From Spirochaetales bacterium (GTDB lineage Bacteria > Spirochaetota > Spirochaetia > UBA9216), in assembly GCA_016342585.1 (NCBI GenBank), contig JAEINK010000005.1, positions 62,001 through 126,000 of the forward strand: DNA of 64,000 nucleotides. The letters run 5' to 3'. The translations under genes and the position numbers were made by a program. This document shows positions 24,476-28,798 of the stretch, in pieces. Positions within the stretch are counted from its first letter, which is position 1, and the number at the start of each line of letters is the position of its first letter. The notes beneath the pieces are model-generated. The model did no database searches and was not told where the DNA came from. It worked only from the letters and a program-made list of their open reading frames with translations.

Positions 24476-27400
24476 TTATCGGAAAAACAGGTCATCCATG
24501 TCCATCGGAAGTTCCATAAAGATCTGCTGATCATAGCTATCCATGGGGTAAAGGAGATTTTTACTGTTTATAAAGGAGAGATTCATCGATTCAGATCGAT
24601 TCAGAGTCTCCGGATCCCTGGAGAGGAAGTCATAATACTCGGATGACCGGGTAAGGTTAACCAGTGAAGCGGAATTCTTGGCAGGGTCACCTGTGGCAAG
24701 ATAGAGACGATTCAAGGTAACACCCAGATTATTATAGGTCACCATCAGATTCTCGATAAGAGCCCTGTGCTCCCTCTTCTCATCAAGGAGAAAGTAGTCG
24801 ATACGACTCTTCTCCTGTTCGAGGAGATCCGCCAGATGTTCATAGTACCCCTGGGCGGAAAAGAAATCATTCCTCATATAAAGAGCAGCCGCAGTCGCAT
24901 AAAGCAGGTTTGGATTATCCGAATACCCCTCAGCTGAGGAGTAAAATTCGAGGAGGGATTCGCGATAGTCTTCTCTTCTATAATGTATATATCCCTTTTT
25001 ATAGCGCAGGTCAGGAGTTGTATAGAGGTTCTGTTCACTGAGTTCGAATTGGGTCAGGGTTGTATCAAAATCGCCGGCTATGTAGTAATAGAGATCACCG
25101 ATATTTGCATAGATTTTTCCAAATTCAGCATCCGGTTCAAGTCTTCGCACCTGGAGAGCCTCTTCATACCTGTTCCTGGCCGCCTGAAACTGCTTCTCCG
25201 CATCAAGATACCCGTTCTGTTCATAGAGGATCTCACCCATCCTGTTATGAGATTTAATAAGAATTTTCAACCTGTTCTTTGTCGCCGGATTCTCCCCTCC
25301 CATTAGATCAAGGGTGGTCTGAACAGCCGTCTGTTCCCGACCGGAATCATTTATAAACCTGAAGTACCGGCCATATTGATAGTAAAGCTCGGGAAGGCTG
25401 GGCGCCTCTTCACGAATACGTTCAAGAACGGGAGAAACCTGATCAAAGAGCCCCTTATCCATCATATACCCGGCAAGTTCGGCATAAATATCCGGCTCTA
25501 TTTTCGCCTTGGGGTTGGACTGAAAGGCATCCTTTATCCTCATAACCTCAGGGAAATTATCCATCCTCATAAGGTACCGCAGCATACGGAAAAGATAGAT
25601 ATCCTTCTGCCCCCATCGTTGAAGGAGGAGAGCATAATGGTACCGCGCCTCTTCATACATCTCAGGATCCAGCTCATCGCCCCATCTTAAAAAGTTATCT
25701 CCCCGAAGAAGCAGGGTTTCCTCGTGATAGGCATCCTGCTCAAGCCGCCGCTTGAGAAGCTCTTCTGCCTGAGGATATTTACCAAGAACCTCCGACTCCA
25801 GCCGGGCATAATCTACCAGGCCTTCTGGATCTTCCCTGTAAATCGTTAGTAGTTCCTCATACTTTTGTTCTGCCAGGGGATACTGCTTTTCCGCGGCAAA
25901 CTCCTCGGCATAAGTAAAATACCACCCTTTCACCCGCCACTTCTCGACAGCACGCTCAAAGTAAGCATTCCCCGCCGCGTACTCTTCAGCCTGAATCTCC
26001 TTGATTCCGGATCGATAGAGCATATTGGCATAGAGGGGGGTGTAAACAAAACGGAAAATAATAAAAACCAGCAGGCTGAGGATAGCAAGCCCCGCCAGAA
26101 AGACCCTCAAAAGAGGAAGAATGTTATGTTTAAACGCGTAGGCAAAGGTATTCCGTTCTTCCTCAAAATGCTGCCCCGACAGTTTCTCATACTGGGCAGG
26201 TATTTCTATCCGCCGACCGATAACTTTTCCCACGATACTGGCAATCTGCTTGGGACTATTGCCTTTTACAAGGGCATCAATTACACCGGAAAGAGAATCT
26301 CCGGATAAACCCTTTTCACCTATCTGCTCCTCGATTATCAATTTTAAATTGCGGGGCAGTGTATCAAGGGTTATTTTCAATCTTTCAAAGTCACTGTCAG
26401 AGATGGAAAAATCATCATCCCCGGCGACGGAAACCTCTTCAACATCGGCAATATCAGCGGAAAATGAGGGAACGGGGCCCAATTCAGTCTCGGCCATATC
26501 ATCCGTATCGATGCCGAACTGTTCGCCTAAATCCCCGAGATTAAAATCGGAGACATCAAAATCATCCATGGATTCATCATCCACAGGAAGAAGGTCCTCC
26601 CCGTCAAAATCGTCTATATCCGAATCGGGGTTCTCCCCTCCGGAATCGGCAGGACCAGCAGTTTCATCAGGAATCGCAAAATCACCAAAACCGAAATCCT
26701 CTTCATCTTCCGTAGAATCCGTGTCGGGGAGATCAAACCCCGTATCAAATTCATCGATATCATCCGGAATGTCCTCCGATGAGCTCTCATCGGAAACTTC
26801 ATCGGGAATACCGAAATCAGAAAGACCGAATTCTGATTCACTATCGGACTCATCGAATGATAAATCATCATCTTCGAGAGATGATAGTTCGGAATCGATT
26901 GATTCATCGGAATCGAGAGACTCGAAGGAATCAACGGGTTCATCTAGATCAGAAGGTGTGTCAAAGTCCTCTAAACTATCTATAGTATCCAAAGAAGATA
27001 GATCATCATTTTCAAAATCATCATCAAAGGATAACTCTTCAAGGGGATTATCATCCTCAGATTCATCATCTGTCTGTTCAGATAAATCAGAAAGATCATC
27101 CAGGGAAAAATCATCTTCGATGGTATCTTCAGGAGCGACCTCTTCAGAGTCATCCATAGGTTCTGAGGCCGCCATAATATCATCGAAGGAGAAATCGTCA
27201 TCACCGGGAGAGGGGGCGTCTAACCCGCTAATCTCATCTAAATCATCAATCTCTTCGCGCTCTTCAATATCCTCAAGGTCTTCAATCTCTTCAGGAAGCT
27301 CCGGCTCTACCGTATCAGAGAGATCTTCAAGGGAAAAATCATCATCAAATGATTCGGGTTCTGATGGTTCAGCAAGATCATCAAGGGAAAACTCATCCCC

Positions 27401-27946
27401 GTCATCATTGTCGGTGTCGGCGAGTTCAGCTGGGGGTTCGATTTCGTCTTCGGGGATTTCATCAAGGTCATCAAGGTCATCAAGGTCATCAAGGTCATCA
27501 AGGTCATCAAGGTCATCAAGGTCATCAAGGTCATCGAGGTCATCGAGGGAAAACTCATCATCCCCTTCAGGAATCTCTACAGGTTCTGAAACTCCAGATA
27601 TGTCATCAAATGAAAAATCATCGGCAGCCGGGTCCTCTATTTCATCCGGAGATCTTCCCAGCTCATCAGAAATCTCATCAAGAGAGAACTCATCCGCAGG
27701 AACCTCTTCATAGGAGAGGTCCTCATCATCAAGGTTGAAGTCGGTAATGGAATCCACATCGGGATCAGACATAGAGTCCGATCCGGGATCCTCATCCGAA
27801 AAGAGTCTGCTGATATCATCGGGAACACCAGCCTCTTCAGGCATGACATCCTCTATCACCTGACCTCTTTCGGCCAGGATTGCAGGTTCATCACCAAGAG
27901 TATTGATTATAGATTTAAATTCTTCAATGTCTTTAAGATCCGGCAT
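24476..27946 (-). CDS. Giant acidic membrane-anchored TPR protein
   Basis: 1156 residues in three parts. Residues 1 to about 510 are extremely acidic and low-complexity, and contain at least seven copies of a peptide of the form [DE]-F-S-[LF]-[DE]-[DE]-[LI] spaced some 25-50 residues apart, plus a run of ten DDL units near residues 134-163. A single hydrophobic segment near residue 615 (VFLAGLAILSLLVFIIF) follows a short folded domain. The remaining 500 residues are TPR-like helical hairpins, probably outside the cytoplasm. Large TPR membrane proteins build the periplasmic flagellar collar of spirochetes, which is one possible role, but I cannot show homology. AAGGA lies only two bases before the ATG. 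Confidence 0.8.
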   Translation of the reverse strand: MPDLKDIEEFKSIINTLGDEPAILAERGQVIEDVMPEEAGVPDDISRLFSDEDPGSDSMSDPDVDSITDFNLDDEDLSYEEVPADEFSLDEISDELGRSPDEIEDPAADDFSFDDISGVSEPVEIPEGDDEFSLDDLDDLDDLDDLDDLDDLDDLDDLDDLDEIPEDEIEPPAELADTDNDDGDEFSLDDLAEPSEPESFDDDFSLEDLSDTVEPELPEEIEDLEDIEEREEIDDLDEISGLDAPSPGDDDFSFDDIMAASEPMDDSEEVAPEDTIEDDFSLDDLSDLSEQTDDESEDDNPLEELSFDDDFENDDLSSLDTIDSLEDFDTPSDLDEPVDSFESLDSDESIDSELSSLEDDDLSFDESDSESEFGLSDFGIPDEVSDESSSEDIPDDIDEFDTGFDLPDTDSTEDEEDFGFGDFAIPDETAGPADSGGENPDSDIDDFDGEDLLPVDDESMDDFDVSDFNLGDLGEQFGIDTDDMAETELGPVPSFSADIADVEEVSVAGDDDFSISDSDFERLKITLDTLPRNLKLIIEEQIGEKGLSGDSLSGVIDALVKGNSPKQIASIVGKVIGRRIEIPAQYEKLSGQHFEEERNTFAYAFKHNILPLLRVFLAGLAILSLLVFIIFRFVYTPLYANMLYRSGIKEIQAEEYAAGNAYFERAVEKWRVKGWYFTYAEEFAAEKQYPLAEQKYEELLTIYREDPEGLVDYARLESEVLGKYPQAEELLKRRLEQDAYHEETLLLRGDNFLRWGDELDPEMYEEARYHYALLLQRWGQKDIYLFRMLRYLMRMDNFPEVMRIKDAFQSNPKAKIEPDIYAELAGYMMDKGLFDQVSPVLERIREEAPSLPELYYQYGRYFRFINDSGREQTAVQTTLDLMGGENPATKNRLKILIKSHNRMGEILYEQNGYLDAEKQFQAARNRYEEALQVRRLEPDAEFGKIYANIGDLYYYIAGDFDTTLTQFELSEQNLYTTPDLRYKKGYIHYRREDYRESLLEFYSSAEGYSDNPNLLYATAAALYMRNDFFSAQGYYEHLADLLEQEKSRIDYFLLDEKREHRALIENLMVTYNNLGVTLNRLYLATGDPAKNSASLVNLTRSSEYYDFLSRDPETLNRSESMNLSFINSKNLLYPMDSYDQQIFMELPMDMDDLFFR
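27459..27548. repeat. 9-bp tandem repeat inside the acidic TPR gene
   Basis: Ten units of nine bases: eight perfect TCATCAAGG, then two TCATCGAGG (plus-strand reading). They encode Asp-Asp-Leu repeats on the minus strand. Because the unit is a multiple of three, slippage would change protein length without breaking the frame. Confidence 0.95.
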
Positions 27947-28093
27947 AGTCCTTCTATCTCTTTTAGATCTATCTAAATAGAATTTCGGTTTATTGATAAC
28001 TTTTACTTAGTGATATTTCATTTTAAATATATTGCACATGGTATTAAATAAAAACCCTCTTATGCCGAGTATATGAGAGAGGTTATTTTTAAC

Positions 28094-28798
28094 ATGAAAA
28101 AACCAGTAATAATACTCCTGATAGCAATTTTAGGCTCAGCTTTCCTCTTTTCATACGAAGGAGGCTCCAGAGATATCTATTTCAAAATCGCGGGTGCTAA
28201 AATGACCGAAGCTCCCCAGATAATGGAAAACAAATTAATTCTTCTCTACAAGCCCGATGAACCTACCCGCTTTGTAGGCGCAGCCTTTGCCCATGAGGAT
28301 TATATATCAATTCACCCGTTTAAGATTAATGAAAATGAGGTTTTTTATCTGGTATTCCCCCTCCCGGAGGATCAGGCAAGCCTCGACTACAGGTTAATCG
28401 TCGATGGACTGTGGATGGCCGACCCTTCAAACAGTAGAATTTACAGGGATACGGGAGGGATATCCATTTCAAATCTCAGCCTGCCCCCCTCCGAGACAAG
28501 GGATCTTTCCAGTCCTCAGATAAAGCAGGATGGCAGGGTTACCTTTATATTCAAAGGGAATTCCGGAGAAAAGGTCTACCTTTCGGGAAGTTTCAACCAT
28601 TGGGATCCCTTCCTCTATAGAATGTCCGAACTTTCACCCGGTTCAGGAATATACGAAATCACACTCCCTATCCGCCGGGGAATCCATTATTATCAATTCA
28701 TCTACCGGGGAGCAGCCTACACGGACCCTCAAAATCTGGATCTTTCAATGGATATTAACAATAGAGAAGTGTCGGTTCTCAACCTTACAAGCGGCTGA
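28094..28798 (+). CDS. Secreted protein with AMPK/isoamylase-type carbohydrate-binding fold
   Basis: 234 residues from ATG 28094; the ATG 21 bases upstream has no ribosome binding site, while GAGAGG lies 11 bases before this one. A signal peptide (KKPVIILLIAILGSAFLFS) is followed by two immunoglobulin-like domains. The second (KVYLSGSFNHWDPFLYRMS, then YEITLPIRRGIHYYQFIYRG) is a clear CBM48/AMPK-beta glycogen-binding type. The first is a more divergent early-set domain. No catalytic domain is attached. It may bind cell-surface glycans. Single gene, convergent with the nitrilase-fold gene. Confidence 0.75.
   Translation: MKKPVIILLIAILGSAFLFSYEGGSRDIYFKIAGAKMTEAPQIMENKLILLYKPDEPTRFVGAAFAHEDYISIHPFKINENEVFYLVFPLPEDQASLDYRLIVDGLWMADPSNSRIYRDTGGISISNLSLPPSETRDLSSPQIKQDGRVTFIFKGNSGEKVYLSGSFNHWDPFLYRMSELSPGSGIYEITLPIRRGIHYYQFIYRGAAYTDPQNLDLSMDINNREVSVLNLTSG

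Follow-up and report, generated by a model that had tools for sequence, protein, structure and literature searches.

FSLDDL-type repeats and a conserved membrane-proximal motif in the acidic arm of FlcA, a flagellar collar protein, from a Spirochaetales bacterium

Introduction

A large gene in the 64,000-nucleotide stretch of Spirochaetales DNA analysed here (hereafter the window) encodes a protein in which peptides of the type FSLDDL recur along an acidic region placed ahead of a membrane helix and a TPR domain. A preliminary description of the sequence took these peptides for multivalent docking sites on a cytoplasmic tether that faces a periplasmic scaffold, perhaps linked with periplasmic flagella. 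The locus therefore raises the question of what the protein is, whether the repeated peptides are held in common with its homologues and, if not, which part of the acidic region is.

Identity and domain architecture

The 1156-residue protein is the orthologue, in a free-living Spirochaetales species, of the periplasmic flagellar collar protein FlcA, and is a new member of a family already known. The identification rests on two NCBIfam models matched above their cut-offs, including (i) FlcA_CTERM (NF047371; 641 bits against a cut-off of 300, profile positions 1-646 of 646) and (ii) FlcA_NTERM (NF047372; 53 bits against a cut-off of 28, residues 1-38), together with the fold match to the TPR domain 8ebf of Leptospira, and it gives substance to the suspected link with periplasmic flagella. 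Pfam returned weak TPR matches alone for the protein, with no match to the arm or to the juxtamembrane region. A single-protein scan found no named relatives, while an alignment search returned 16, the closest including Candidatus Thalassospirochaeta sargassi.

The flcA gene is present as a single copy in its own genome, where it occurs with flagellar genes, FliG_C being found twice. These two FliG-type genes (G000:C87:25605-25925 and G000:C57:1740-2060) lie in open frames of 349 and 428 residues. The curated FlcA cut-off was exceeded in 136 of 296 genomes, weak profile matches being left uncounted because controls score at the same level. FliG is missing in all 12 genomes of family f12, which are devoid of FlcA, and likewise in most FlcA-less genomes of families f57, f58 and f66, a shared absence that also speaks for the identification. 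The exception is G307, which has a FliG-type match but lacks FlcA; the f9 genomes display a divergent FliG and a weak TPR match only. Adjoining flcA, the forward strand encodes a 241-residue protein (28073-28798) with an AMPK1_CBM glycogen-binding domain and an apparent N-terminal signal-like hydrophobic stretch. Antisense to the arm, a serine/arginine-rich open frame of 487 residues (26250-27713, forward strand) is not likely to be a gene and is best read as a side effect of the many D/E codons on the coding strand.

The protein comprises an N-terminal box, a long acidic arm, a juxtamembrane domain, a transmembrane helix and a C-terminal TPR superhelix (Table 1), an architecture that agrees with the acidic arm, single membrane helix and TPR domain of the preliminary description. 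The two short helices of the N-terminal box are placed at residues 4-17 and 20-26 in the full-length model, and most homologues whose start is intact have a recognisable box, which is weaker in the Brachyspira-like ones. The arm counts 203 D/E and 3 K/R among its 472 residues, and pLDDT remains below 50 across residues 37-512 of the full-length model, as expected for disorder. All full-length homologues inspected carry such an arm, Leptospira-like ones included, with a length that ranges from about 240 to 940 residues and the charge kept. AlphaFold2 modelling of residues 498-1156 (45 homologues; mean pLDDT 89.9) discloses the juxtamembrane helices (pLDDT about 70-80), the membrane helix and then the TPR superhelix, for which the top Foldseek match in the PDB is 8ebf, the C-terminal TPR domain of Leptospira interrogans LIC11990 (E 2.9e-9). 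The conserved four-helix juxtamembrane domain shows the pattern LPxNLKIxIEE...GxxIxIP. As for the proposed tether facing a periplasmic scaffold, the scaffold half stands, the TPR half being periplasmic in Borrelia FlcA (PMC11750108, PMC8609358); the arm of the Spirochaetales protein would then be cytoplasmic.

Table 1. Features of the flcA gene and its product, in positions of the window
Feature	Residues	Position	Strand	Basis or remark
flcA CDS	1-1156	24476..27946	-	1156 aa + stop, ATG start; NF047371 and NF047372 matches
N-terminal box (MPDLKDIEEFKSIINTLGDEPAILAERG...)	1-38	27833..27946	-	NF047372 match; two short predicted helices
Acidic disordered arm	39-510	26417..27832	-	composition; pLDDT <50
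Copy 1, EFSLDEI	from 86	27671..27691	-	strict pattern
Copy 2, DFSFDDI	from 110	27599..27619	-	strict pattern
Copy 3, EFSLDDL	from 131	27536..27556	-	strict pattern
9-bp tandem repeat, (DDL)n		27459..27548	-	Tandem Repeats Finder; 10 copies, 98% match; directly after copy 3
Copy 4, EFSLDDL	from 185	27374..27394	-	strict pattern
Copy 5, DFSLEDL	from 203	27320..27340	-	strict pattern
Copy 6, DFSFDDI	from 251	27176..27196	-	strict pattern
Copy 7, DFSLDDL	from 279	27092..27112	-	strict pattern; best conserved of the seven, 1.64 bits
Anchor motif, SDFNLGDLGEQFG	466-478	26513..26551	-	de novo motif search and alignment
Juxtamembrane domain	511-607	26126..26416	-	3.11 bits/column; four short helices at 517-577
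Transmembrane helix region	608-640	26027..26125	-	hydropathy; continuous helix in model
TPR superhelix	641-1156	24479..26026	-	pLDDT mostly >90; periplasmic in Borrelia FlcA

The seven FSLDDL-type peptides

The strict pattern [DE]FS[LF][DE][DE][LI] matches the protein exactly seven times, which makes precise the earlier count of seven or more. Shuffling the residues of the arm predicts 0.008 copies and dipeptide-preserving shuffling 0.076; in 5000 shuffles of the latter kind the count never rose above two, and the six copies left when the (DDL)n tract is taken out were again matched by no shuffle. The spacings between consecutive copies are irregular (24, 21, 54, 18, 48 and 28 residues). Synonymous codons vary from copy to copy (TTT/TTC, TCC/TCT/TCA, CTG/CTT/CTC), so recent duplication at the DNA level does not account for the seven; the copies were picked by pattern, and codon variation alone is no proof of selection. 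The length of the 9-bp (DDL)n repeat probably varies between strains. Elsewhere in the genome, a search covering the TCN codons of serine found FSLDDL as four singletons and in no second multi-copy protein; two of the singletons reside in enzymes, pyruvate-formate-lyase-activating-enzyme-like and PEP-synthase-like, and the other two on contig C16.

Comparison with homologues bears directly on the proposed multivalent docking. Among about 117 other FlcA arms, six have one or two copies of the strict motif and the others none; the five readable arms of same-family (f1) relatives, one of them truncated, hold 0, 0, 1, 0 and 0 copies. In an alignment of 20 sequences, conservation at the positions of the copies is 0.43-1.09 bits, compared to an arm average of 0.79; only the copy at residue 279 stands out, at 1.64 bits. 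The columns under the seven copies are thus mostly no better conserved than the linker. Sequence comparison therefore does not support the FSLDDL array as a conserved docking array: homologues devoid of the motif are what the preliminary description had named as telling against it. What survives of that proposal, as a plausible reading, is docking by one conserved peptide that has been multiplied within the lineage.

A conserved anchor motif near the membrane

The most conserved element of the arm, absent from the preliminary description, is a different one. A de novo motif search over the arms yielded one positionally fixed motif, [DE][DE]F[SN]LGD[LF]GxxFG, here called the anchor. It reached a likelihood of 271.6 against 130.8-143.0 for shuffled arm sets, which were run from random seeds only; two of the 26 seeds on the real arms were the anchor and an FSLDDL-type peptide as spotted by eye, so that the search was not fully blind. 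A MAFFT alignment, which involves no such seed, places the anchor in register. Conservation amounts to 2.57 bits per column in the anchor and 2.65 in the N-terminal box, compared to 3.1-3.2 in the folded domains and 0.79 in the arm, with F468, L470, D472 and F477 of the anchor nearly invariant. Where a lineage has the anchor, it sits 42-63 residues from the end of the arm; in the 1156-residue protein it precedes the membrane helix by about 140 residues. Neither NCBIfam model covers it. Some families (L066, L068, L156, L161, L167 and others) also carry a second short motif, LNPAxA, which follows the anchor at a distance of 15-25 residues and precedes the juxtamembrane domain.

The element at the anchor place differs among lineages. 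Family f6 (L202), which was held out of the motif search, displays ADEFSLDDFG; the Treponemataceae show the variant DFxIPGF, family f8 shows DFSL[SP][GN][IL]D, and Borrelia a faint DDFxFLE only. Neither the motif search nor the comparison of anchor sites recognised the anchor in the Brachyspira-like family (f25) and several deep families. Given that the anchor is missing or weak in some lineages, a partner shared by all of them would need to recognise different peptides. In the monomer model the anchor is unfolded, as expected of a peptide that binds in trans; as a single unstructured peptide it could equally be a folding or membrane element. Elsewhere in the genome, an FSLGDL-type pattern found four matches, none with the F-[SN]-L core (control, 1+1), the pattern being one that also misses the FNLGDL of the window itself. 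A limited search of the literature and curated models found no description of the anchor, which appears to be undescribed so far.

Repeats in the arms of other lineages

The repeated peptide and the anchor share a common core (DEFSLDDL compared to DEFSLGDL), and judged by this likeness the FSLDDL peptides look like repeated copies of the anchor core. Outside the anchor, the other arms contain 38 instances of a looser half-motif, where dipeptide shuffles predict 9.4, and most lineages show an enrichment of about 1.3-2.4-fold in a shared loose grammar, acidic-F-[SD]-[LIM]-x-D. Repetition as such is widespread, a 9-mer in at least three copies being present in 45 of 116 arms and in none of the 116 shuffled ones, and the repeat unit is lineage-specific, including GFDLPDFDS, DNLELPEDL (20 copies), EEESFELPE and LEDLDLSPE, with yet other sequences in the Leptospira-like (f45) arms. 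An extreme lineage-specific repeat is that of a Treponemataceae arm (L038), with 24 near-exact copies of GFDLPDFDS. The idea that arm repeats copy the anchor variant of their own lineage found no support, proline at position F+3 being enriched whether the anchor has G or P there.

Proposed role and alternative readings

We incline, with slightly better than even confidence, to the reading that the cytoplasmic half of FlcA is a tether that docks one or more putative partners through the N-terminal box and the anchor, the extra copies adding avidity. The periplasmic TPR half scaffolds the stators at the collar, as known from Borrelia, and the cytoplasmic half would act as the tether. The N-terminal box and the anchor (DEFSLGDLGxxFG) may serve as binding sites for one or several partners in the cytoplasm, at the motor or the pole, and the acidic disordered arm would space and present them. 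The seven FSLDDL peptides would repeat the first half of the anchor in a lineage-specific way and might raise the avidity for the same partner, or its local concentration, none of them being essential singly. A wider form of this proposal is tentative, and we put it short of an even chance: across the phylum, the box and one membrane-proximal motif ([DE][DE]F[SN]LGD[LF]GxxFG, or DFxIPGF in Treponemataceae) would couple the collar and its stators to a putative cytoplasmic partner, with lineage-specific repeats tuning the valency.

The main rival reading, which we consider rather unlikely, regards the arm as a sequence-nonspecific acidic brush or spacer in which charge, length and disorder matter and the repeats represent low-complexity growth; such a brush might, with the same modest probability, keep the region round the motor open or bind basic partners electrostatically. 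The broad range of arm lengths with the charge kept, and repeat units that each lineage has for its own and that shuffled arms never reproduce, are consistent with it, but conservation extends to individual residues in the anchor and the N-terminal box, and most lineages are enriched in a shared grammar. A narrower doubt concerns the FSLDDL copies, which could be functionless and have come about as repeats expanded in an arm rich in D, S, L and F, with only the anchor and the N-terminal box at work. That the seven peptides are unconserved between relatives, and that an active 9-bp tandem repeat adjoins copy 3, argue for such by-products; we nevertheless hold them to be a minority prospect, since synonymous differences, different flanks and irregular spacing speak against a recent tandem array and the half-motif stands 4-fold over dipeptide shuffles in other arms.

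Improbable, in our estimate, is a HubP/FimV-like polar-landmark hub, whose arm would recruit polar, chemotaxis or flagellar-number proteins and link the pole to the collar. HubP is alike in its single membrane helix, its TPRs and its unstructured acidic cytoplasmic region with repeats that differ in both number and sequence between close species (PMC12918733), but the TPRs of FlcA lie across the membrane from those of HubP, following the membrane helix on the C-terminal, periplasmic side, and the NCBIfam and fold searches indicate FlcA.

The tether reading bears on how the collar is approached. So far the collar has been studied as a periplasmic structure; a long cytoplasmic arm that is retained throughout the phylum and holds one conserved peptide would imply a cytoplasmic side of the collar, as a route to the C-ring, the stator bases or the pole. 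Components of the collar are, to our knowledge, still described as missing in reviews, and a conserved peptide used as bait would offer a direct route to one of them.

Comparison with known systems

In HubP and FimV, which are not related to FlcA, LysM is periplasmic and the TPRs are cytoplasmic, so that the topology is inverted with respect to FlcA; neither Pfam nor NCBIfam gave a LysM or FimV match in the 1156-residue protein. PflB from Campylobacter jejuni is an inner-membrane TPR scaffold beside FliL and the stators whose cytoplasmic N-terminal region matters for motility, which was halved in its absence; FlcA and FlcB are discussed as structural homologues of PflA and PflB in the same preprint (PMC11870540). 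The periplasmic PflB construct starts at residue 113, its cytoplasmic region being much shorter than the FlcA arm. PflB comprises a membrane helix and TPRs with an antiparallel β pair in the middle (PMC11870540); the FlcA model has a membrane helix and TPRs but shows no strands by DSSP, and PflB is absent among its 50 best PDB matches. LIC11990 from L. interrogans (8ebf), the top structural match of the TPR half, shares 14% identity in the aligned part, and the Leptospira-like (f45) FlcA proteins likewise have an acidic repeat-rich arm and a juxtamembrane domain, their repeats being of other sequence.

FlcA from Borrelia burgdorferi (BB0326) forms the S-shaped, turbine-like periphery of a 16-fold collar; through its periplasmic C-terminal half it makes contact with FliL and MotB and lends stability to the stator units (PMC8609358, PMC11750108, PMC7693769). 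The recombinant constructs correspond to that half, residues 360-931, starting past the membrane helix (PMC8609358, PMC11750108), and no discussion of a cytoplasmic arm was found in this literature (PMC8609358, PMC11750108). Borrelia FlcA is without FSLDDL peptides, its anchor is the vague DDFxFLE, and the arm of the Spirochaetales protein is about twice as long (472 compared to roughly 240 residues); both proteins nevertheless share the same order of N-terminal box, acidic arm, juxtamembrane domain, membrane helix and periplasmic TPR domain.
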